NCBI RefSeq assembly: GCF_025460835.1
Contig: NZ_JAMXAY010000014.1
Location: 1 to 64,000 of the forward strand
Direction of reading: 5' to 3'
From: Parapedobacter soli
Lineage (GTDB): Bacteria; Bacteroidota; Bacteroidia; Sphingobacteriales; Sphingobacteriaceae
Length of the DNA: 64,000 nt
Every line of letters begins with the position of its first letter. Positions within the stretch are counted from its first letter, which is position 1. Under the pieces are notes generated by a model. That model searched no databases, was not told the DNA's origin, and was given only the letters and a program-made list of their open reading frames with translations. The translations under genes were made by a program, and so were the position numbers. This document shows positions 10,447 through 20,905 of the stretch, piece after piece.

Positions 10447-13400
10447 ATGTTTAATCGGATTTATCAGTTAGTTGTTGCGTTCAGTTTGGTTTCGTCGGTT
10501 GCGTTAGCGCAGCAAAGTGCCTGGCAGGAAGTGAACCAGGCATACAAAACGGGGATGGAGTTGTTTGAGAAAGGGAAATATGCGGCTGCCGCTAAACATT
10601 TTGATCAGGTAGAAGCTATCCGGATAAAGTCGACATTGCAACAGGATGAACATGTCGAATTGTCCCTGCTGAAAGAAAACGCTCGTTTTTACCAGGCTAT
10701 ATGTGCTTTGGAACTTGGCGAATCGGATGCGGAGAGCCAATTCTTGCGTTATATCAAAGATTACCCGGCAAGTGCCAATGCTAAAGCCGCTTACTTCCAA
10801 GTGGGGCGATCATATTTTGCCAAGAAAGATTACGAGCGCGCACTCGAGTGGTTTACCAAATTGGATAGCCGGAACCTGGCTGGCTTGGAGAGTAAAGAAT
10901 TCCGGTATAAGATGGCGTATTCGTATTTCATGACGGACGATTACGATTCGGCGAAACCACTCTTCGGACAACTGAAGGATGAAGGCGGTATATACCAGGA
11001 AGCATCTATCTACTACTATGCTTATTTATGCTACCTGGACCGGGAATTCAAGGTTGCGCTGGCAGAGTTTGAAAAACTGAAAGGTTCGAAAACGTACGAA
11101 GCAACGTACCCGTATTACATTACAGCGCTTTATTACCTTGATAACCGGTATGACGACGTACTAGATTATGCGTTGCCGATTTTGGAGCAGACTAAACAGG
11201 CCCACGAGACCGACATGTTCCGTATTATAGCAGCTACCTATTTCGCTAAAAACGATTTTGAAAACGCATCTGCATACTACGATAAATTCCAAGCGGACGA
11301 CCGTGGCCGGACCCAGAATAATCAGGATAGCTACCAGATTGGGTACATCGCATACAAAACGGGCGATTATGAGCGTGCGATTTCGGAATTGGAGAAAATG
11401 GAAGAACCGGATGCTTATTATCAAAGCGCGATGATCGCATTGGGCGACGCATTCTTGAAAACAGGTAATAAACAAAGCGCACGCAATGCATTTTTCAGGG
11501 CCTCGAAGCTCGACTTTGATCCCGCGCTGAAGGAAGAGGGGTTGTTCAACTATGCAAAACTGTCGTCCGAGCTTGAGTTTCACCAGGTGGCGTTGGAAGC
11601 AGCCAAGGAATACTTAGACACTTACCCTAATACGAGAAGACTGGAAGAGGCAAAAACGCTATACGCCGAAACGCTTCTCGGCACCAGTAACTACCGTGCC
11701 GCGGTGGATATCCTTGAATCTATTAAAGACCGGGGGCCGGAGGCCGATGCTGCCTATCAGCGGGTTACGTATTACCGGGGGCTCGAATTCTATAATGAAC
11801 GCGCTTTCGAGAACAGCATCTCCCTGTTCATGAGGTCAGAACAATACCCTATCGATGCACGTATCGAAGCGTTGGCGACCTATTGGAAAGCGGAGGCGAT
11901 GTATGAGGTGCGCAAATATGGCGAATCGGTCCAGGCGTTTTCGCGTTTCCTAAGGATGCCTGCTGCCCGCCAAACGGATGTATACAGTTATGCAAATTAT
12001 GCGTTGGCTTATGCCGCGTTCCGTAACAATAGTTTCAATACCGCCGCCAATTACTTCGAGCGTTTCCTTTCAACCGGTGGGAATGCTATCGAGACCAACG
12101 TGCGCAATGATGCGATTGCCCGGTTGGGCGACTCGTATTTTTCGATGCGCAATTACAGTCGGGCGATGCAGTATTATGACCGGTTGATTAACAGTAAGGC
12201 CCAAAGCCAGGACTATGCGCTCTTCCAGCGTGGTATTATCCAGGGACTGCAGGGCAACAACGAGGCGAAACTTAGTACATTGCGGGCCGTAGTGGAGCAG
12301 TTTCCGAATTCCAATTACGCCGACGATGTTGCCTTTGAGGTGCCATACACCTATTTCACGATGGGCGATTATGAAACGGCCATCGATGGTTTGCAACGGA
12401 TGATCGAGCAGTATCCCCGCAGTAGTTATGCACCGCGTGCACTGATGACGATCGGCCTTGTGCAGTATAACAACGACGAGACGGAGGCAGCCATGGCTAC
12501 GTTCAGGAAGGTAGTGGAGGAGCATTCTACTACCGATGAAGCCCGGCAGGCCCTGCGTTCCATCGAAAACATCTACCTGGAGCGTGGGGATGCCTCGGGA
12601 TACATCAATTACGCTACAAGCGCCAATATCGGTGACCTCTCCAAAGAGGAGCAGGACAATCTTTCCTTCCAAGCGGCACATACATTGTTTGCCAGAGGAG
12701 AGTATCAGGGAGCGGTGGAAGCCATCAATGCTTACTTTGATAAATTCCCGAATCCGCTCCGGGAAAAACATGCACGGTACATCCGGGGCGTAAGTTACTA
12801 TCGGACAGGCCACCCGAAAGAGGCATTGCACGACCTCAATATCATCCTGAATGATTGGACCAGCCAATACACAGAAAACACACTGCTCACGGTATCTGAA
12901 CTATACCTTGGGTTGGAACAATACAATGAAGCTATTGTACATTTGAAGAAACTGGAGCTGACGTCTGAATACAAGGCGAACTATGGCTACGCGGTAAACA
13001 ACCTGATGCTGTGCTACGACAAAATCGGCGATATGGAGCAGGTCGTTAAGTACGCGGATTTGATCAAGGCTTACGATCGTTCGTCGGAAGAGGATATCGC
13101 CAAGGCACACCTGTATACTGCCCGGGCTTTACTAAGGAAAGGTGATGTGGCGCCTGCGATGAAGGAGCTCAACCTTGCTGCGTTGAAGAGCCAAACGGTG
13201 ACTGGTGCCGAAGCACGGTACCGCGTTGGCCAGTTGCAATATGAAGCGGGCGATTATGACAAGGCCATCGAATCAGCTTTCGATGTCATCAATAACCTGG
13301 GCTCTTATGAATATTGGGTGGCCAAAAGCTTTATCCTCCTTGCGGATGCATATGCCGGCAAGGGCGACGACTTTCAGGCAAAGAGCACTTTGGAGAGTAT

Positions 13401-13479
13401 CATCGAGAATTACGAAGGAGAGGATGATATCATCCCGGCGGCCAAGGAACGGCTGGCTAAGTTGAACAGTAAAGGATAA
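10447..13479 (+). CDS. Large exported TPR protein
   Basis: A 1010-residue protein with a signal peptide (MFNRIYQLVVAFSLVSSVALAQQ) followed almost wholly by tetratricopeptide-type helical repeats, for example GKYAAAAKHFDQVEA near 42-56, and later many repeats with A-Y-x-x-G-D-Y-x-x-A spacing. It is likely periplasmic, where TPR arrays act as protein-binding scaffolds; in Tol-Pal systems the TPR protein CpoB (YbgF) plays such a role. From residue 253 to the end it is paralogous to the next gene. The operon continues with an outer-membrane barrel, an SPOR protein and ExbB/ExbD/TonB-like genes. No enzymatic motif is visible. The function in this locus is inferred from context only. Confidence 0.85.
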   Translation: MFNRIYQLVVAFSLVSSVALAQQSAWQEVNQAYKTGMELFEKGKYAAAAKHFDQVEAIRIKSTLQQDEHVELSLLKENARFYQAICALELGESDAESQFLRYIKDYPASANAKAAYFQVGRSYFAKKDYERALEWFTKLDSRNLAGLESKEFRYKMAYSYFMTDDYDSAKPLFGQLKDEGGIYQEASIYYYAYLCYLDREFKVALAEFEKLKGSKTYEATYPYYITALYYLDNRYDDVLDYALPILEQTKQAHETDMFRIIAATYFAKNDFENASAYYDKFQADDRGRTQNNQDSYQIGYIAYKTGDYERAISELEKMEEPDAYYQSAMIALGDAFLKTGNKQSARNAFFRASKLDFDPALKEEGLFNYAKLSSELEFHQVALEAAKEYLDTYPNTRRLEEAKTLYAETLLGTSNYRAAVDILESIKDRGPEADAAYQRVTYYRGLEFYNERAFENSISLFMRSEQYPIDARIEALATYWKAEAMYEVRKYGESVQAFSRFLRMPAARQTDVYSYANYALAYAAFRNNSFNTAANYFERFLSTGGNAIETNVRNDAIARLGDSYFSMRNYSRAMQYYDRLINSKAQSQDYALFQRGIIQGLQGNNEAKLSTLRAVVEQFPNSNYADDVAFEVPYTYFTMGDYETAIDGLQRMIEQYPRSSYAPRALMTIGLVQYNNDETEAAMATFRKVVEEHSTTDEARQALRSIENIYLERGDASGYINYATSANIGDLSKEEQDNLSFQAAHTLFARGEYQGAVEAINAYFDKFPNPLREKHARYIRGVSYYRTGHPKEALHDLNIILNDWTSQYTENTLLTVSELYLGLEQYNEAIVHLKKLELTSEYKANYGYAVNNLMLCYDKIGDMEQVVKYADLIKAYDRSSEEDIAKAHLYTARALLRKGDVAPAMKELNLAALKSQTVTGAEARYRVGQLQYEAGDYDKAIESAFDVINNLGSYEYWVAKSFILLADAYAGKGDDFQAKSTLESIIENYEGEDDIIPAAKERLAKLNSKG

Positions 13480-16191
13480 GAGTTTAAACAAGCGATGATA
13501 ACGCGAGGACCGATCGGCTATAGATATTTGCTTACCGGGGCTTTTTCGGCCTTGCTCGCAATAACTTATGCGCAGGAAGGGGAGAAACAGGATCCCGTTA
13601 CGATCGATTCTATCGACGTGGTACGCGACTACCGCCCGATGCTGGAGGATGCTGTGAAGGTTCGCCGGAGCCCGGACATGGGCATGGACCGGCAAACACT
13701 GGAGACCGAGCTGCGATGGAGTGTCGCCACTGCCTATTTCGTAAAGAGCAAATTCAGAAAACCGTATTACAGTAGATTGCTTGAGCGGCACCCCGATGCA
13801 GCGCCAGACAATATCGATAACTACCGGATCGGATACATGGCCTACGAGAACGGTGAATATGAACGGGCAGCTGCCATTTTGAAGCAATTGGAGGAGTCGG
13901 ATGCCTTTTACCAGGGCTCATTGATAGCGTTGGGTAATATCTACATGGCAGCCGGAGATAAATATGCCGCACAGGATGCGTTTGTCAAGGCATCGGAACT
14001 GGACTTTGACCAAGCATTGAAAGTGGATGGCCTGTTTAATTACGCTAAGCTTTTGTTTGAAGCGGATTCCCCGCGGGTTGCCTTGGAAGCCGCCCGCGAA
14101 TATGTCACTCAGGTACCCTTGGCTGCGGCGCCGGATAGTGAAAAAACGGAAACCCCCGAGACCCTGCTGGCAGAAATCTTGCTAGGCACGAGCAATTTCG
14201 AGGCTGCCGTGAATATGCTGGAATTAATCAACAACAGGGATAGGGACGGTGATATGATCTACCAAAAGGTGGCATATTACCGTGGACTGGAATTCTACAA
14301 TGAGCGAGCATTTGAAAACAGTATTTCCTTGTTTATGAGGTCGGAAGGATTCCCTATCGACCCATTGATAGCTGCCCTGGCTACCTATTGGAAAGCGGAG
14401 GCGATGTACGAAGTACGGAAGTATAGGGAAGCGGTGGAGGCATTTTCCCGTTTCCTCCGGATGTCCGCGGCGCCTGAAACGGAAGTGTACGTTTATGCCA
14501 ACTATGCACTGGCGTATGCGGCATTCCGCAGTAGTAACTTTGACACCGCGGCCAATTATTTCGAGCTCTTTTTGTCGGCCGGTAAAAGTTCGATGGAAGA
14601 GAATATACGAAATGACGCTATGGCGCGTTTGGGGGATTCGTATTTATCCTTACGCAATTACGGGCGGGCAACCCAGTATTATGATCGGTTGATTAGCACC
14701 GGGGCGCCAAATCAGGACTACGCCCTGTTCCAACGCGGGATTATCCAAGGACTGCAAGGTGACAACCAGGAAAAGATGAATACACTGCGGTCGGTTACCG
14801 AGCAATTTCCGAATTCGAATTATGCCGACGATGTGGCCTTTGAAATACCGTATACCTATTTCGTGATAGGCGACTATGATACAGCCATTTCGGGGTTGCG
14901 GCAGATGATTGAAAAGTATCCGCGCAGTAGTTATACCCCCCGCGCATTGATGACAATAGGCCTGGTGCAATATAATAAGGGCGACAGTGAAGCAGCAATG
15001 GCTACATTTAATAGGGTAGTAGCAGAGTATTCCACCACAGATGAGGCCCGCCAGGCACTACGCTCCATCGAAAATATATACCTGGACAGCGGAGATGCGT
15101 CGGGATATGTCGACTATGCGACGAGCTCGAACCTCGGAGACCTGACGAATGCTGAAAAGGATAATCTGGCATTTAGGGCAGCCCAGACGCTGTTCTCCCG
15201 GAAACAATACCAGGCAGCAGTAGAAGCTGTAAATGCTTATTTTGACAAATTCCCCAATCCTGCACAAGAGAAACACGCCCGTTACATCCGAGGAGTGAGC
15301 TTATACAACGCTGGCTATCCGGAAGATGCACTGCACGACCTGAATATCATCTTGAACGATTGGACCAGCCCGTATACCGAAAAGACGCTGCTTGCGGTAG
15401 CAGATTTATATCTCGGATTGGAACAGTATAATGAGGCCATAGTGCATCTCAAAAAATTGGAAATCACATCGGAATACAAAGCGAGCTATGGGTATGCCCT
15501 GAATAACCTCTTGGTGTGCTACTATGAAATCGGGGATACCGAACAAGTACTCAAATACGCAGAATTGATTAACGCGTATGATGGATCGGCTGAGGAAGAT
15601 ATTGCCAGAGCCCATCTCTATACCGGTTATGTATTGCTCCAAGCGGATGATCCAGCGAAAGCAACGAAGGAGTTGAATCTTGCAGCGTTGAAGAGCCACG
15701 AATCGGTCGGCGCTGAAGCGCAATACAATATCGCCCGTTTGCAATACGAAGCCAAAAGATACGACAAGGCAATCGAAAGTGCCTTCGACGTGATTAACGA
15801 TCGGTCGCAGTATGACTACTGGGTAGCGAAAAGCTTTATCCTGCTTGCCGATGCCTATGCCGGAAAAGGCGATAGTCTGCAGGCAAAAAGTACCTTGGAG
15901 AGTGTCATCGGAAATTATGAGGGTGAAGATGACATTATCCCAACGGCCGAGGAGCGTTTACAGATGTTTAACAATAAGTGATAGGAGTTTTTACGGATTA
16001 TGATCTTTCAGGAATCAATACGATATCGGTTTTTATTCACCACTGTTCTGTGTGGGGTAGTACTGGTTGGATACACACAGGAGGTAACGCAACGGGATGA
16101 GCGGCCCGCTACCATCGACTCCATTGACGTGGTACGCGACTACAGGCCGATTTTGGCCGATGCCGTAAAGATTCGGCAGAGTCCCGACATG
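11203..16191 (+). repeat. Diverged tandem duplication, two units of about 2.5 kb
   Basis: Unit 1 runs from 11203 (residue 253 of the first TPR protein) to about 13680 (residue 62 of the chimera). Unit 2 runs from about 13690 to 16191 (residue 64 of the barrel protein). Both consist of the last 758-760 residues of a TPR protein followed by the signal peptide and N-terminus of a barrel-type protein ending in SPDM. One tandem duplication with these endpoints gives the present order: TPR, barrel-N::TPR-C fusion, barrel. In the block YYRGLEFYNERAFENSIS to MRSE, identical in protein, 14 of 24 codons differ silently, so the copies are old and both under selection. Confidence 0.8.
13495..15981 (+). 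CDS. Chimeric protein: barrel-type N-terminus fused to TPR array
   Basis: An 828-residue exported protein. Residues 1-62 (signal peptide ending near ITYAQEG, then IDSIDVVRDYRPMLEDAVKV and SPDM) match the N-terminus of the barrel protein encoded next. Residues from about 69 on match residues 253-1010 of the preceding TPR protein with no large gap. It therefore lacks the first third of the TPR array and instead carries the short VVRDYRP segment. The start 15 bases after the previous stop and 18-base gap to the next gene place it in one operon. It is not a pseudogene: the frame is intact and substitutions are mostly silent. Confidence 0.85.
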   Translation: MITRGPIGYRYLLTGAFSALLAITYAQEGEKQDPVTIDSIDVVRDYRPMLEDAVKVRRSPDMGMDRQTLETELRWSVATAYFVKSKFRKPYYSRLLERHPDAAPDNIDNYRIGYMAYENGEYERAAAILKQLEESDAFYQGSLIALGNIYMAAGDKYAAQDAFVKASELDFDQALKVDGLFNYAKLLFEADSPRVALEAAREYVTQVPLAAAPDSEKTETPETLLAEILLGTSNFEAAVNMLELINNRDRDGDMIYQKVAYYRGLEFYNERAFENSISLFMRSEGFPIDPLIAALATYWKAEAMYEVRKYREAVEAFSRFLRMSAAPETEVYVYANYALAYAAFRSSNFDTAANYFELFLSAGKSSMEENIRNDAMARLGDSYLSLRNYGRATQYYDRLISTGAPNQDYALFQRGIIQGLQGDNQEKMNTLRSVTEQFPNSNYADDVAFEIPYTYFVIGDYDTAISGLRQMIEKYPRSSYTPRALMTIGLVQYNKGDSEAAMATFNRVVAEYSTTDEARQALRSIENIYLDSGDASGYVDYATSSNLGDLTNAEKDNLAFRAAQTLFSRKQYQAAVEAVNAYFDKFPNPAQEKHARYIRGVSLYNAGYPEDALHDLNIILNDWTSPYTEKTLLAVADLYLGLEQYNEAIVHLKKLEITSEYKASYGYALNNLLVCYYEIGDTEQVLKYAELINAYDGSAEEDIARAHLYTGYVLLQADDPAKATKELNLAALKSHESVGAEAQYNIARLQYEAKRYDKAIESAFDVINDRSQYDYWVAKSFILLADAYAGKGDSLQAKSTLESVIGNYEGEDDIIPTAEERLQMFNNK

Positions 16192-17736
16192 ACCAATAAG
16201 AGGCAATACCAACCCGATTTTAGCTATAGCATCATCGATAAAAAACTCGACATCAATACCGGTACGAAACGGTTGACCATCCAGGAGATGCCCTTTTCAC
16301 GTACCCAGCAATTGACAAATAATTATGTCAAATTCGGAGCGGGAAACCTTGGAACCATTTTAGGGGAGGTGTACCTTAGTTCGGATTACTGGGTGGATAC
16401 GCGAGTGGGGGGGTATGTGAAGCATTTGAATCAACAAGGCACATTTGAAGAGCAGAAATTCTCATCGCAACACTTGGGGGTGTTCGGCCGCACAGTGTAC
16501 GGTCCCATCACGCTCGATGGTGAAGTGGGCTTCAAACGGTACGGTACACGGTTTTATGGCACGGTGGCGGATGCGGATGGTACATCGCTTAACGTCAGCC
16601 CGGCTAAGCAGGCATTCAACGATATTTATTTTACGGGGGAGATAACCAGTAACTACGACGACCAAGCGACAGATGCCCTTGTTTATTCAGCGAAAGCAGA
16701 TGCTTATATCTACAGCAATGCCTTCGAAACAAAGGAAAACTCCTTTGCATTGGCAGGTTACATCAACAAACAGATCAATGCATTTAACGTCGGTCTCAAT
16801 GTATCGGGAGACTTCACAACGGTAAAAGATGCGTCTTACAACCTTGCTAACCATATCGGCCGTGTCAATCCATATATCCGCTTCCAAGGCCCCAATTACA
16901 ACATCACGTTAGGCGCCAATTTCGTCGCGGAATTCGGCGACTCCTCACGGACCAATATTTTCCCTTCTGCGGAGGTGGATTTCGCATTGGTTCCGAAATA
17001 TGCACACCTTTTCGGAGGGATTGGTGGAGATGTGAACAAAACGTCGTTCAAGACACTCTCCGGCGAGAATCCGTGGCTGGCAGCATTGGGAAGTTCAAAT
17101 GATATCCGCAATGCAGTTGACCGTATGTACGTGTTTGGTGGTATCAAAGGGAATGCCGGCGCAACGTTCGGCTATAAGGTAAAAGCGTTATACCGCCGCG
17201 TTGAGGGGATGCCTTTTTATGCTATTGCTCCCGGCAGACCGTATGAGTTCAATCTTTTGTATGAAAGCGGCGAAAACGCCAGTACCGTTATTGGGTTGGA
17301 GGGTGAGTTGAATGTCCGTATCTCGGAAGTGGTAACCGTTGGCGGCCGGGTGAACTTCAATGAGTTTGACCTCCAGCAGCAGGAAGAGGCATGGTATACA
17401 CCGAAGATGCGGATGGCTGCCAATGCCCGTTTCAATATCAGCGATAAACTTTATATCGACGGTGAGCTCCTGTTCCAGGGGCAGACCTACGGGCTGGTGC
17501 CCGACGGTAATATTGATTTGTCGGATTATGCCATTACAGAAGTAGGGACCACGGGCATGCGTAAAGCGACTATCCCTTCTTTTGCAGACTTGAGTGCCGG
17601 AGCGGAGTACCGTGCTACCGACCGCATTGGGATTTATGTGCGGCTGAATAATATGCTGGGTGCTAATTACGAACGATATCTATTCTACCCCCGTTTGGGC
17701 CTGAATGTAATCGGCGGTATTAATTTTTCATTTTGA
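16000..17736 (+). CDS. Outer-membrane beta-barrel protein with VVRDYRP N-terminus
   Basis: A 578-residue exported protein. After a signal peptide (LCGVVLVGYTQ) comes the segment IDSIDVVRDYRPILADAVKI (about 39-58), then many amphipathic strands and a C-terminal strand ending GLNVIGGINFSF, whose last aromatic residue is typical of outer-membrane barrels. It resembles TonB-dependent receptor barrels in the strand region but has no recognisable plug domain or carboxypeptidase-like domain. Its place between TPR genes and the HU-SPOR/ExbB/ExbD/TonB group suggests it is the outer-membrane end of that trans-envelope system. Ligand unknown. Confidence 0.78.
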   Translation: MIFQESIRYRFLFTTVLCGVVLVGYTQEVTQRDERPATIDSIDVVRDYRPILADAVKIRQSPDMTNKRQYQPDFSYSIIDKKLDINTGTKRLTIQEMPFSRTQQLTNNYVKFGAGNLGTILGEVYLSSDYWVDTRVGGYVKHLNQQGTFEEQKFSSQHLGVFGRTVYGPITLDGEVGFKRYGTRFYGTVADADGTSLNVSPAKQAFNDIYFTGEITSNYDDQATDALVYSAKADAYIYSNAFETKENSFALAGYINKQINAFNVGLNVSGDFTTVKDASYNLANHIGRVNPYIRFQGPNYNITLGANFVAEFGDSSRTNIFPSAEVDFALVPKYAHLFGGIGGDVNKTSFKTLSGENPWLAALGSSNDIRNAVDRMYVFGGIKGNAGATFGYKVKALYRRVEGMPFYAIAPGRPYEFNLLYESGENASTVIGLEGELNVRISEVVTVGGRVNFNEFDLQQQEEAWYTPKMRMAANARFNISDKLYIDGELLFQGQTYGLVPDGNIDLSDYAITEVGTTGMRKATIPSFADLSAGAEYRATDRIGIYVRLNNMLGANYERYLFYPRLGLNVIGGINFSF

Positions 17737-17793: not shown

Positions 17794-18846
17794 ATGAATT
17801 TGGGTGTGAGTATTGCGAGTCTGTTGAGGCGGTACCCAGCGGTAGACGTGCCAGGCATCGGTGTCTTCAAGAGGACCCGTTACCCGGCTTCGTACGACTC
17901 CGATCGGTCTACCTTTAATCCACCGGTTGAACACATAGAGCTCGTGGCCGACCAGCCTGCCCATGGGTTTCCTATTACTACCTACTTGAAGGCACAGCAG
18001 CAGGTGGATGAGGCAACGGCTGTGGCCATGCTGGAAGCCTCGGTCAATACATTGATGGACACCATCAGCCGGAATGGTGAGGCGCTCTTAGAGGGGCTTG
18101 GACACCTGTTTGCTGACGGTGCCTCATTCGTATTCAAGCCATTTGAGGCTAACGGATTAGTTATGGAACCGGTTGCTGCCCCGTTGCCGCCAGACGGTGA
18201 GACATTGGATACGGAGCATGCTGGGGAGGTGATAGGCGCCGAATTGATAGGTGCAGATAGCGAAGAAGAACCGGTAGTTCAGCCCGAAGAGACCGAAGCA
18301 AATGAAGCTGGCATTCCCGTGAAGCGGCGGAGCCCGTGGATTATGGCAGCAGCGGTCGTGGTAGCACTGTTGATCGGAGCGGGCTTGGTATGGTATTATC
18401 AACCGGCCGGGTTTGGTAGTATCATCGCTGGCGATGTAGTCGAACACGGGGCTGGTAGACCAGACGAAGTAAAGCCAGTTATCTCCGGTCTCGGGAATGA
18501 TTCGGTGGAAGTTGCAGATACTGCGCAGTTAACAGCCATGGCAATCGACGCTGATTCGGTTCAGGTAAATACCAAACCCGAGGTCAATAGCATACCAGCT
18601 GAGCCATCGGTAACCTATGAGATTATCGTTGGATCATTTGCTACGATGCGGCAGGCAGATAAATTTGTGGCAGAAATGAAGGCGAAAGGATACGACCTGC
18701 ATGCAATCGACAGCCGGATGCCGGGTAACCGTAAGAAAATTAGTTGGGGATCATTTGCCACGGAGGAGGAAGCCTACAAGGAATTGGCGCGGGTGCAAAA
18801 AACATTTGAACCCGGAGCTTGGATAGCGAAGATAGAACATCAATAA
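17794..18846 (+). CDS. HU-CCDC81-like / transmembrane / SPOR domain protein
   Basis: A 350-residue protein with three parts. Residues 1-125 (SIASLLRRYPAVDVPGIGVF, then FPITTYLKAQQQVDEATA) match the paired bacterial HU-CCDC81 domains, folds related to HU/IHF. A membrane helix (WIMAAAVVVALLIGAGLVWYY) lies near 182-202 after an acidic linker. The C-terminal 80 residues (YEIIVGSFATMRQADKFV to WGSFATEEEAYKELARV) are an SPOR domain, which in other proteins binds glycan strands without stem peptides at the division septum. Topology would be HU domains inside, SPOR in the periplasm. It heads the ExbB/ExbD/TonB genes and has its own promoter. A link between the cell interior and septal wall is an inference. 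Confidence 0.85.
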   Translation: MNLGVSIASLLRRYPAVDVPGIGVFKRTRYPASYDSDRSTFNPPVEHIELVADQPAHGFPITTYLKAQQQVDEATAVAMLEASVNTLMDTISRNGEALLEGLGHLFADGASFVFKPFEANGLVMEPVAAPLPPDGETLDTEHAGEVIGAELIGADSEEEPVVQPEETEANEAGIPVKRRSPWIMAAAVVVALLIGAGLVWYYQPAGFGSIIAGDVVEHGAGRPDEVKPVISGLGNDSVEVADTAQLTAMAIDADSVQVNTKPEVNSIPAEPSVTYEIIVGSFATMRQADKFVAEMKAKGYDLHAIDSRMPGNRKKISWGSFATEEEAYKELARVQKTFEPGAWIAKIEHQ

Positions 18847-18893: not shown

Positions 18894-19595
18894 ATGTTAC
18901 TTTTACAGCAAGACACCATTTATCCGCTAGATACATTGGCGGGCGCAGCGCAGCAGACGGTAGAACTAGCAAACGAGAAAATAAGCCTCATCGGCTTGCT
19001 TTTCAAGGCGGGCTGGATCATGATCCCACTGTCGCTTTTGCTTTTCGCTACACTTGTGGTATTTATCGAACGCTACATCACGATTAAAAAGGCCTCGAAA
19101 TATGATCCGAGCCTGATGTCGCATGTCAAACAAAGTGTGCTTTCAGGACGCCTGGACTCGGCGTTGTCGGTTTGCAGGGCTAGCAACAGTGCATTGGGCA
19201 GGATGCTTGAGAAAGGGTTGGTACGTATCGGTCGGCCTATCAAAGACATAGAGGGCGCTATAGAGAACGTTGGTAAGCTCGAGGTTGGCAGGTTGGAGAA
19301 AAACCTTAATATACTAAGTATCATCGCCGGTGTTGCGCCGATGTTGGGTTTCGTGGGAACAATTTTCGGTGTGATCATTATCTTCCGCGACGTGGAAGCG
19401 GCCGGAGGCATCGACATTGCTAGTGTGTCGGGGGGACTGTACGTGAAGATGATTGCTTCAGCTGCCGGACTTACAATCGGTATCTTGGCATTTGCTGGTT
19501 ACCATTGGTTGAATACCATGCTCGAACGCCTGATTCTCCGCATCGAAACAGATGCCATTGAATTTGTTGACTTATTGGATGAACCCGGCTCATAA
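18894..19595 (+). CDS. MotA/TolQ/ExbB proton channel protein
   Basis: A 233-residue inner-membrane protein with three helices (about 37-58, 140-162 and 178-202), the TolQ/ExbB pattern. The second helix region GVAPMLGFVGTIFGVI and the third SGGLYVKMIASAAGLTIGI are the conserved channel blocks. With the following ExbD-like subunit it should form the proton-driven motor that energises a periplasmic arm. In this operon the arm is the TonB-like protein two genes on. Whether it is closer to Tol, Exb or a Bacteroidota-specific type cannot be told from motifs alone. Confidence 0.92.
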   Translation: MLLLQQDTIYPLDTLAGAAQQTVELANEKISLIGLLFKAGWIMIPLSLLLFATLVVFIERYITIKKASKYDPSLMSHVKQSVLSGRLDSALSVCRASNSALGRMLEKGLVRIGRPIKDIEGAIENVGKLEVGRLEKNLNILSIIAGVAPMLGFVGTIFGVIIIFRDVEAAGGIDIASVSGGLYVKMIASAAGLTIGILAFAGYHWLNTMLERLILRIETDAIEFVDLLDEPGS

Positions 19596-19609: not shown

Positions 19610-20017
19610 ATGAACTTAAGAGCGAAGCGAAATAAATCGGAGGTAAGGGTTTTTACGGATTCCCTGAACGACATCATGTTCTTCCTGATGTTGTTTTTCC
19701 TGTTGGCGTCGGCGGTTTCAAATCCGCAGGTGGTGAAGCTGCTATTGCCGCGTTCGAGTGCAGGCGAACAATCCGTAGCGAAGAAGACGATTACGGTATC
19801 GGTTACCCAGGATTTGAAATACTACCTCGATAAAGAGGAGGTGCCCTATGAGAACTTGATGAGTGCGATACAGGCATACGTGCAGCCGGGTGAAGAGCTT
19901 ACCATCATGCTTTATGCAGACAGCACGGTGCCTATCCAAAATGTGATATCGGTTATGGACGTGGCCAATAAGTTGAGAATTAGGCTCGTATTGGCTACCG
20001 AACCGTTGCGCGAATGA
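19610..20017 (+). CDS. ExbD/TolR biopolymer transport protein
   Basis: A 135-residue single-span protein with a short cytoplasmic N-terminus, one helix (about 21-42) and a periplasmic domain. The key acidic residue at the mouth of the helix is Asp21 in SLNDIMFFLMLFFLL, the proton-carrying position in ExbD and TolR. The gene starts 14 bases after exbB, so the two subunits are co-translated. The periplasmic part (YYLDKEEVPYENLMSAI, IMLYADSTVPIQNVISVMDV) follows the ExbD/TolR domain layout. Confidence 0.92.
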   Translation: MNLRAKRNKSEVRVFTDSLNDIMFFLMLFFLLASAVSNPQVVKLLLPRSSAGEQSVAKKTITVSVTQDLKYYLDKEEVPYENLMSAIQAYVQPGEELTIMLYADSTVPIQNVISVMDVANKLRIRLVLATEPLRE

Positions 20018-20083: not shown

Positions 20084-20905
20084 ATGGGTTACTATCATTT
20101 ACAGGAAGAAAATAACTACCCCAAAGCGTTGTGGATATCCAGCGGCATCATGGGTGGGTTATTGATTCTCAGTTTCATCATTATGATCGGTTCGGCCTTC
20201 CCTGAGATCGGAACCGGGGGTATCATCGTGAACTACGGTACTTCGGACGTCGGGATGGGCGACGATTACATGACAGTCGATGATGCTTCGATGGATCCCA
20301 ATGCCAATAATGTGCGGCCCGACAAGATTGACCCGCAGCAGGAGATTCAGGAAACGCCATCGCAGCAGGTTACCGAGCAAAGTGTGGCGACACAGGATAT
20401 GGAAGATGCACCGGCGGTGGTTGCCAATGAACCTAAAAAGGCCAATGCAGCCGAAGCAACCGCTACGAAGGAAGAAAGTAAACCAGCGATCAATCCCAAT
20501 GCGCTTTACACCGGGAAGCGAAACAATTCAACGGGTAGGGGAGACGGTACCGGTACAGAGGCCGGCAACCAGGGCAGCAACCAAGGCGACCCGCTTGCGT
20601 CCAATTACGGCGAAGGCGGGTCGGGCGATGGCGATATCGGGCTCTCCATCCAGAATAGGGGGTGGGCTGTGCCGCCCAATATCGAAGACAACGGGCAGCA
20701 GGCCGGAGTTGTAATGGTGGAAGTGCGTGTGGCACGGGATGGCCGGATAACCTTTGCCCGGGTGAGTTTGAAGGGAACAACCCTGACCGATAAAGCCTTA
20801 TGGGATAAATGTGAACGTGCGGTGAGGAACGCCCGGTTTAACGAAATTGAGCGCGCACCACGCGAGCAACGTGGACTGATACCATTCCGGTTCAGGTTGA
20901 AATAG
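20084..20905 (+). CDS. TonB/TolA-like energy transducer
   Basis: A 273-residue protein with an N-terminal membrane helix (about 16-39, ALWISSGIMGGLLILSF), a long low-complexity periplasmic linker rich in Glu, Gln, Asn, Thr and Gly (60-180), and a C-terminal alpha/beta domain (VMVEVRVARDGRITFARVS to FNEIERAPREQRGLIPFRF). The layout is that of TonB/TolA arms that couple an ExbB/ExbD or TolQ/TolR motor to outer-membrane partners. The linker contains no proline-rich spacer as in classical TonB; it is glycine-rich instead. Its most likely partner is the barrel or TPR protein encoded upstream. Confidence 0.85.
   Translation: MGYYHLQEENNYPKALWISSGIMGGLLILSFIIMIGSAFPEIGTGGIIVNYGTSDVGMGDDYMTVDDASMDPNANNVRPDKIDPQQEIQETPSQQVTEQSVATQDMEDAPAVVANEPKKANAAEATATKEESKPAINPNALYTGKRNNSTGRGDGTGTEAGNQGSNQGDPLASNYGEGGSGDGDIGLSIQNRGWAVPPNIEDNGQQAGVVMVEVRVARDGRITFARVSLKGTTLTDKALWDKCERAVRNARFNEIERAPREQRGLIPFRFRLK

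Follow-up and report, generated by a model that had tools for sequence, protein, structure and literature searches.

How does an operon come to hold a gene that shares its beginning with the gene downstream and most of its remaining length with the gene upstream, and what might such a gene do once it exists? This question is raised by a stretch of 64,000 nucleotides from Parapedobacter soli (contig NZ_JAMXAY010000014.1 of the assembly GCF_025460835.1; hereafter the window), in which three genes, all on the forward strand like every other feature of the window named here, follow one another. The first (10447..13479) encodes a canonical tetratricopeptide repeat (TPR) protein of 1010 amino acids, as judged from the list of open reading frames (ORFs) and the Pfam TPR families; the third (16000..17736) encodes a protein of 578 amino acids which an AlphaFold2 (AF2) model and Foldseek lead us to predict as an outer-membrane beta barrel; the middle gene (13495..15981) encodes an 828-residue protein, here called the fusion, in which a barrel-type signal peptide and motif are followed by a TPR solenoid. 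ORFs, repeats and alignments confirm that the middle gene is an in-frame fusion with the geometry of one ~2.5-kb tandem duplication, the TPR protein being the parent of its C-terminal part and the barrel protein the parent of its N-terminus. Beyond what the initial annotation of the window had claimed, the data support the view that the fusion is as old as the genus, resides outside the operon in most of its carriers and has moved horizontally between genera.

The tandem duplication can still be read from the DNA. Direct repeats occur at a spacing of 2505 (11665-11964, 13306-13536) and of 2511 (13594-13695), and a scan in steps of 60 bases detects one diagonal, from ~11300 to ~13690, along which the offset passes from 2490 through 2505 to 2511, with no clear diagonal before or after it. 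Together, the repeats and the diagonal delimit, with approximate edges, a left copy of the duplicated unit (11194..13689), comprising the TPR gene from residue ~250, the intergenic stretch and a barrel-type 5' end, and a right copy (13690..16191), comprising the TPR-type part of the fusion, the next intergenic stretch and the 5' end of the barrel gene itself. The single duplicated unit starts in the TPR gene (~residue 250, near 11194) and ends in the barrel gene (~residue 64, near 16191); since the unit spans the distance from the TPR break to the barrel break, the fusion consists of the first ~65 residues of the barrel protein and the last ~760 residues of the TPR protein, a chimera between intact parents, with one repeat period from the break in the first gene to that in the second. 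The alignments agree with this geometry: the fusion and the TPR protein align with a score of 2696 (best of 100 shuffles, 88), residues 1-67 of the fusion and 1-69 of the barrel with a score of 172 (best of 100 shuffles, 63), and the junction falls at residue ~62-66 of the fusion, ~250 of the TPR protein and ~64-69 of the barrel. Thus the central claims of the initial annotation, namely the composition of the middle gene, its origin by a single duplication of about 2.5 kb within the operon and the homology of both its parts across the junction, are borne out, the last of them far above the shuffles.

The same holds for the statement that silent changes dominate: between the fusion and the TPR gene of the window, the nonsynonymous divergence (dN) is 0.20 and the synonymous divergence (dS) is 3.2, i.e. 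synonymously saturated. It had further been proposed that the fusion was kept as a working protein; purifying selection is supported, and that the protein works we infer from dN/dS alone. Selection is unevenly spread along the fusion. In nine pairs, the pooled dN/dS is 0.38 for the signal peptide and linker, 0.035 for a barrel-derived motif at residues 37-62 (IDSIDVVRDYRPMLEDAVKVRRSPDM, 13603..13680), with 0.14 at the junction and 0.10-0.13 along the TPR part, so that within the fusion the constraint is strongest on the 26-residue motif that derives from the barrel. A relaxed form of the motif is matched by 58 of 60 fusion rows, some of them near-identical, and the other two differ by V to I. 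The barrel's own copy of the motif (residues 38-64, 16111..16191) shows a pooled dN/dS of 0.008, and it can be recognised in barrels of other genera of the family (EEIVVTTAYKPVLADAVKI in locus L136) and of the family f4 of the class (e.g. IGTETVNVVKPYSPTISDAFKV in L150), where a ETVNVVKPYSPTISDAFKV-like peptide near the N-terminus (L142, L144, L147, L148, L150, L152-L160) matches the EEIEVVRPYKPILAEAVKI type of the own family; the barrels of f8, f9 and f10 seem to retain no more than an acidic-hydrophobic stretch. As a separate observation, the fusion of the window carries E at motif position 51 (13645-13647) in place of the A found in nearly all others, and its branch is long (0.20); because of these two features its evolution seems to be faster than that of the related in-operon fusions.

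How old and how widespread is the fusion? The search of relatives that had been suggested for dating the event finds it in all nine Parapedobacter genomes, one copy each, hence at the age of the genus. It lies between the TPR and barrel genes in G000, G003 (P. indicus), G006 (P. lycopersici) and G007 (P. pyrenivorans), and on another contig than the operon in the five others (G001, G002, G004, G005, G008). In a sample of 251 genomes of the family, where fusions were counted by hand among the matches listed (down to ~759 bits), it was found in 9/9 genomes of group g1 (Parapedobacter), 4/5 of g15 and 39/51 of g16 (by inference, Olivibacter and Sphingobacterium, respectively), 2/2 of g17 and 1/1 of g19. 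Within the same matches, none of the 183 genomes of the 20 other genera of the family showed a fusion, with the proviso that a very divergent one could escape (three of the 183 had no match whatever to the fusion query), and no genome held two. A scan of named genomes, several of which are also in the family sample, yielded at least 79 loci from Parapedobacter, Olivibacter, Sphingobacterium, Rhinopithecimicrobium, another member of the Sphingobacteriaceae and one metagenome-assembled genome (MAG) labelled Massilibacillus; in 50 of these loci the fusion has no operon TPR gene nearby, and such copies are called solitary below. In the class as a whole, the fusion query finds matches at E 1e-20 in 229 of 247 genomes, mostly through canonical-type TPR proteins: among the matches listed, those outside the family have open frames of at least 960 amino acids, which is the size of the canonical TPR protein, and a few of the alignments start at query residues 39-51. 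The in-operon fusion of P. lycopersici (G006; L011, L019, L020, L075) contains a frame change near a contig end, either a real break or an assembly fault, and the MAG labelled Massilibacillus (L128) carries an operon stretch of Sphingobacterium type (TPR protein 68% and PyrB 88% identical to those of the window), probably a binning error.

The relationships of these copies point to a single source. When 36 fusions are placed in one tree with 57 canonical TPR proteins, the fusions form one clade that is joined to the nine Parapedobacter TPR proteins with a support of 100; an independent, deeply divergent middle gene, the contrary outcome that the initial annotation had envisaged, was not found. 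In a careful tree of 48 rows, including 20 fusions, the fusion clade and the Parapedobacter TPR proteins are united at 100/100, and the fusions of Olivibacter, Sphingobacterium, g17 and g19 are nested within those of Parapedobacter, with supports, from the base up, of 100/100, 99/95, 91/89 and 89/94. Placing the Parapedobacter fusions in one clade is rejected in this tree (log-likelihood, lnL, 82 lower; p of the approximately unbiased, AU, test 3e-74), and the fusion tree conflicts with the canonical TPR tree of the same genomes, the canonical TPR gene being the resident gene compared. Could the fusion, then, be older than the genera, having been inherited vertically from their common ancestor and later lost or moved many times? 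An unrooted tree of the fusions alone allows a reading that sets Parapedobacter apart from all the other genera, and the low synonymous change described below extends to in-operon copies too. However, gathering all ingroup TPR proteins into one clade, as an ancient origin would have it, is rejected in the careful tree (lnL 158 lower, AU p 7e-6). The fusions of Olivibacter and Sphingobacterium are nearer to the TPR proteins of the five Parapedobacter with out-of-operon copies than to the TPR protein of their own genus in 11 of 11 alignment windows with data, with a small margin in the first three, and between Olivibacter and the same Parapedobacter the mean identity is 83.7% for the fusion and 68.3% for the TPR protein. 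The G+C content at third codon positions (GC3) is likewise at odds with vertical inheritance: in nine Sphingobacterium it is 0.50-0.56 in the fusion and 0.35-0.46 in the genome's own TPR gene, the fusions of eight Parapedobacter having 0.56-0.63. Given, in addition, the single blocks of 2.6-2.7 kb that otherwise unlike loci share (see below), an ancient origin of the fusion appears to us highly improbable.

A Parapedobacter origin might, in principle, be mimicked by gene conversion between the adjoining TPR and fusion genes of this genus. Tandem copies can convert each other, and in P. indicus the own TPR protein is nearer to the own fusion than the other Parapedobacter TPR proteins are in 4 of 11 alignment windows, by up to 8 points, so that short converted tracts may occur there. 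In the species of the window and in P. pyrenivorans, however, the own TPR protein is not consistently nearer to the own fusion, and conversion leaves unexplained both the whole-gene likeness of the fusions in other genera to the Parapedobacter TPR protein and the DNA blocks that they share, so that we give this explanation hardly any weight. The N-termini are too short for a tree; in this part most fusions read DSIDVVRDYRP or close to it, as do the Parapedobacter barrels, and the Sphingobacterium barrels mostly read DSFDVVRDYKP or DSFDIVRDYRP.

Synonymous divergence was compared as the proportion of differing synonymous sites (pS) in eight Parapedobacter (without P. lycopersici), 15 Sphingobacterium and three Olivibacter, with the operon genes as reference (no ExbD values, and no TonB values for Olivibacter). 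Between Parapedobacter with out-of-operon copies, the mean pS of the fusion is 0.26 against 0.71-0.76 for the operon genes, and in each of the 10 pairs the fusion has a lower value than any of them; between Olivibacter and Parapedobacter it is 0.44 against 0.81-0.85, the fusion being lowest in 24 of 24 pairs. The fusion also lies below all operon genes compared in the pairs of Olivibacter with Sphingobacterium (45/45), of Parapedobacter with Sphingobacterium (115/120), within Olivibacter (3/3) and between in-operon and out-of-operon Parapedobacter (13/15). Trees, alignment windows, synonymous divergence and GC3 thus agree that the fusions outside Parapedobacter descend from a Parapedobacter TPR gene, and therefore that they have spread horizontally.

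What exactly has been moving? The genes flanking the 50 solitary loci differ among most species, save for a few groups of close relatives, and the DNA shared by distant loci is confined to the fusion ORF and short edges. In the stretches compared, P. luteus and P. tibetensis share a single block of 2,733 bp with 94.0% DNA identity and no other match at E 1e-5 (the P. tibetensis stretch starts 771 bp before the fusion). With P. tibetensis, one block each is likewise shared by P. defluvii (2,685 bp, 89.7%), Olivibacter domesticus (2,631 bp, 88.8%) and O. jilunii (2,591 bp, 87.3%). Altogether 14 pairs were compared, of which eight have a single block, one (P. koreensis and P. tibetensis) has its block in two pieces and five, all within a genus, have further DNA in common. 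Since the blocks shared between species have this length, the moving unit is ~2.6-2.7 kb long and comprises ~130-160 bp upstream of the fusion, the ORF itself and some tens of bp past the stop codon.

The edges of this unit carry traces of its former neighbours. Before the start codon there is a match to the 3' end of the canonical TPR gene (the codons for IIPSAKERLxKL) together with a short intergenic stretch. In the 48 of the 50 solitary loci that could be used (no start codon was found for the other two), this remnant scored above all of 200 mononucleotide shuffles in 29, namely in 4/5 of the Parapedobacter, 1/3 of the Olivibacter and 24/40 of the Sphingobacterium loci. After the stop codon, a match to the first codons of the barrel gene (MIxQKSM-like) exceeded all 200 shuffles in five of the 48 (L053, marginally, L055, L057, L059 and L060). 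These counts do not stand for independent events, since the loci share ancestry. A TPR remnant on the 5' side and a barrel remnant on the 3' side indicate that the solitary copies were excised from a TPR-fusion-barrel arrangement, which is the simplest reading of their source. When three of the leaders were compared with the operon loci by BLASTN, the matches were weak (E 1e-4 to 0.06) and lay mostly at TPR 3' ends, the exceptions being one match at the 3' end of a fusion (L086) and matches in L161 and L162, where the TPR genes are longer and the matched stretch stops 130-180 bases short of their ends. The TPR gene's own promoter was considered as the source of the solitary leader and discarded: the upstream part of one leader has no match in the operon loci examined. 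The upstream remainder of the solitary copies is taken for a putative captured promoter. The copy of P. composti stands apart (L056 7776-8000) in that the usual leader is missing and the fusion frame is continuous upstream with the end of what looks like an Rpn/PD-(D/E)XK transposase-like ORF.

As to the vehicle, two marks of a transposon or insertion sequence were looked for and not seen: the 11 loci compared share no terminal inverted repeats, and the ~2.6-2.7 kb unit contains no transposase gene. Some features of the insertion sites hint at a tRNA-targeted integrative element. In 12 of the 50 solitary loci the unit has a tRNA gene no farther than 800 bp away. Three settings occur: P. koreensis (L054) with tRNA-Pro(ggg), nine Sphingobacterium loci with one type of neighbourhood and tRNA-Pro(tgg), and L091 and L093 with tRNA-Asn. 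In P. koreensis, what we presume to be the remnant of the 3' end of a recombinase-like gene lies between the tRNA gene and the fusion, and a decayed remnant in P. luteus (L055) is, we assume, also recombinase-like. In S. athyrii (L078 7486-7745), a second copy of the 3' end of tRNA-Pro(tgg) stands between the tRNA gene and the fusion unit that follows it, which hints at the attachment site expected of an integrative element; S. siyangense and the MAG of L074 have no unit at the tRNA-Pro site used in S. athyrii, and the DNA downstream of it differs. The converse comparison matched, for the most part, members of a repeated gene family.

Taken together, these data suggest the following scenario. 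In the Parapedobacter lineage, one tandem duplication of ~2.5 kb, with breaks in the TPR gene and in the downstream barrel gene, would have produced the in-frame fusion. Later, a copy would have been cut out together with the final codons of the TPR gene on its upstream side and the initial codons of the barrel gene on its downstream side, would have gained an upstream region of ~80-100 bp and, as a solitary unit of ~2.6-2.7 kb, would have spread to many sites in other Parapedobacter, Olivibacter, Sphingobacterium and related genera, while the window would retain the original arrangement within the operon. We consider this history of birth by duplication, excision and spread between genera to be very probable. 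Several observations count against it nevertheless. The groups submitted to the AU test were named after the first tree had been seen, and an arrangement in which the Parapedobacter TPR proteins form one clade with the fusions outside may hold as well (AU p 0.09). No barrel remnant was detected in 43 of the 48 solitary loci and no TPR remnant in 19. The fusion was found on no mobile carrier among 72,556 plasmid records, 50,697 phage records and a viral scan: three plasmid records and one phage record contain distant TPR relatives only (26-28% identity, in alignments that begin no earlier than query residue 96), and no relative of the fusion is among the 12 stretches matched in the viral contigs. 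Terminal inverted repeats common to the copies were not seen, only L054 of 11 loci exceeding the shuffles. Within Sphingobacterium, no more than 81 of 105 pairs have a pS of the fusion below that of every operon gene compared, and in one Sphingobacterium pair the dS of the fusion is above that of the TPR gene. In-operon fusions, too, are low in pS (0.53 against 0.72-0.76 for the operon genes, in 3/3 pairs), and because of this a part of the low divergence may stem from slower synonymous change or local recombination. Apart from these points, windows of 50 columns showed no clear chimera in other Parapedobacter, such as a lost in-operon copy might leave as a scar.

Chimeric genes that arise when a tandem duplication has its breaks within two adjacent genes are of a known kind, as is gene transfer. 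The fusion resembles other such chimeras in that the 5' part of the downstream gene is joined in frame to the 3' part of the upstream gene and both parents are kept; it differs from them in that it has since moved from its locus into other genera, many copies bearing remnants of the parents at their edges. A chimera with a readable birthplace, remnants of excision and later spread between genera is thus new within a known kind. Judged by titles and the beginnings of abstracts, no description of the fusion was recognised among the papers that literature searches listed, and none was found of a Bacteroidia operon with genes for TPR, barrel, SPOR, ExbB, ExbD and TonB proteins.

This operon provides the setting in which a function has to be sought. 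Its order in the window is PyrR, PyrB (both names presumptive), TPR protein, fusion, barrel, SPOR protein, ExbB, ExbD, TonB-type protein and FolC. The SPOR domain protein (17794..18846) scores above the Pfam cut-off for SPOR; HU-CCDC81 domains are suggested by two models, both below their Pfam cut-offs, and the gene has the same place in the named relatives. It is followed by an ExbB/TolQ-type proton channel protein (18894..19595, PF01618), an ExbD/TolR-type protein (19610..20017, PF02472) and a weakly assigned TonB-type protein (20084..20905), which is below the cut-offs of both families considered (PF03544, 19.2 bits vs 24.6; TIGR01352, 25.9 bits vs 27.1). The TPR and barrel genes are neighbours in those of the operon loci examined that are long enough to show both, and the barrel profile matches 79 of 198 genomes of the phylum, many of them across the C-terminal part only. 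In Sphingobacterium multivorum NCTC11343 (L125 10369-12059) the barrel gene is split into three ORFs of 242, 104 and 114 amino acids, being either broken or affected by a sequencing fault.

The structural models show a helical scaffold for the fusion and, at low confidence, suggest a barrel for its other parent. The AF2 model of the fusion is a TPR solenoid of ~40 helices with a mean predicted local distance difference test (pLDDT) score of 82.7, residues 1-57 being below 50, and Foldseek retrieves TPR and related helical-repeat solenoids with it. The model of the barrel is poor (mean pLDDT 49.1, residues 1-106 and 384-578 below 50) with many strands from residue 109 on; the best Foldseek matches of this low-confidence model are TonB-dependent transporters (E 7e-11), foremost PirA, PfeA, FepA and BtuB. 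Searches by sequence returned no solved natural relative of the barrel at E 0.1; with the TPR protein they retrieved, at E 1e-6, nothing but engineered or consensus TPRs. To judge by eye from its signal-like N-terminus, the fusion is probably exported to the periplasm. Its motif, compared by eye with the consensus, looks like a TonB-box-like peptide with an extension, which would be a resemblance to TonB-dependent transporters; the differences from these are that the barrel has no plug domain by Pfam scan, its residues 1-106 being disordered in the low-confidence model, and no Pfam receptor domain, and that the fusion has no barrel at all. No TonB-dependent-transporter-like ORF for a TonB-box comparison was among the window ORFs picked.

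On these grounds, a function may be proposed. Having lost the barrel and the first ~250 residues of the TPR protein and having kept the barrel's conserved peptide, the fusion could be a soluble periplasmic scaffold that acts in trans, presenting the peptide to the TonB or TPR protein of the operon, and would then be an extra or competing subunit of the TPR-barrel-TonB/ExbB/ExbD machine. We advance this proposal tentatively, as one possibility: both the weak assignment of the TonB gene and the reading of the TonB box by eye speak against it, as does the fact that, with residues 1-57 below a pLDDT of 50, the motif has no confident place on the solenoid. The history and this function taken together as one explanation we hold to be moderately probable.

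The nearest known systems are alike only in part. Like CpoB/YbgF of the Tol-Pal system, the TPR protein is a predicted periplasmic TPR protein encoded beside genes of TolQ, TolR and TonB type, and both it (175.3 bits) and the fusion (138.1 bits) exceed the cut-off of 90.1 bits of TIGR02795 (tol_pal_ybgF), for which a generic TPR signal may suffice. The solenoid is, unlike that of CpoB/YbgF, far longer, the fusion has a barrel-derived peptide, and neither TolB nor Pal was found among the 7 and 8 operon proteins scanned with family models. The layout of the fusion differs from CpoB/YbgF too, being a solenoid in a protein of 828 amino acids and not a coiled coil with three TPRs in a tolB-pal operon. 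In Escherichia coli, the N-terminus of TolB pairs with TolA much as the TonB box does with TonB, and the TPRs of CpoB also bind TolA (PMC7391070); by analogy, the fusion would unite a TolB-N-terminus-like peptide with a CpoB-like TPR scaffold. PorE, proposed to be a compact Tol-Pal-like protein of Bacteroidetes with TPR repeats and, so it is suggested, a TolA/TonB-like force transducer as its partner, is likewise a joined protein of the Bacteroidetes periplasm (PMC12204202). PorE, however, is described there as a lipoprotein with TolB-like, carboxypeptidase-like and peptidoglycan-binding domains (PMC12204202), none of which was detected in the fusion by family scans, and the origin of the fusion lies within a single lineage of genera.

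The constraint on the motif can also be understood without TonB. The main rival to a TonB-box function is that the motif binds the TPR protein, docking the barrel to the TPR scaffold, in which case it would allow the fusion to enter assemblies of TPR proteins or to occupy its own groove. Peptide binding is common among TPR solenoids, the constrained block of 26 residues exceeds the length of a TonB box, and the adjacency of the TPR and barrel genes in the operon loci also suits such docking. The fusion model, however, shows no confident placement of the motif on its own solenoid, for which reason docking in cis was set aside as being without support, and we regard the binding of the motif to the TPR protein as somewhat unlikely. 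Another alternative is that of a mobile decoy, a TonB-box-like peptide that competes with bacteriocins or phages for the TonB/TPR/barrel machine and whose protective effect drives its spread. A protective role would explain the horizontal spread; the patchy presence of the fusion (39/51 genomes of g16, among the matches listed) and the strong constraint on the motif are in line with it, and TolA, whose pairing with TolB resembles that of TonB with its box, is a target of bacteriocins and phages (PMC7391070). The neighbour genes of the solitary copies, however, show no shared theme by eye, and a decoy function seems to us rather improbable.

The favoured history, birth of the fusion by duplication in Parapedobacter followed by excision and spread between genera, would make this locus a record of a gene's birth and escape, with the tandem arrangement kept in some species and remnants of the parents at the edges of many escaped copies. 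Because it has remained almost unchanged after the loss of the barrel, the 26-residue N-terminal peptide of the barrel is flagged as a functional element in its own right, and it offers a direct handle on the TPR, barrel, SPOR, ExbB, ExbD and TonB operon of Bacteroidia. One may go further, into territory that we consider unlikely, and envisage the fusion as a single-gene trait that roams, being a TPR decoy with a TonB box, or an alternative subunit with one, which was born in one genus and has entered other genera repeatedly. If so, its entry would be driven by a change in how an outer-membrane machine that TonB drives, and that is widespread in the Bacteroidia, behaves or can be exploited.

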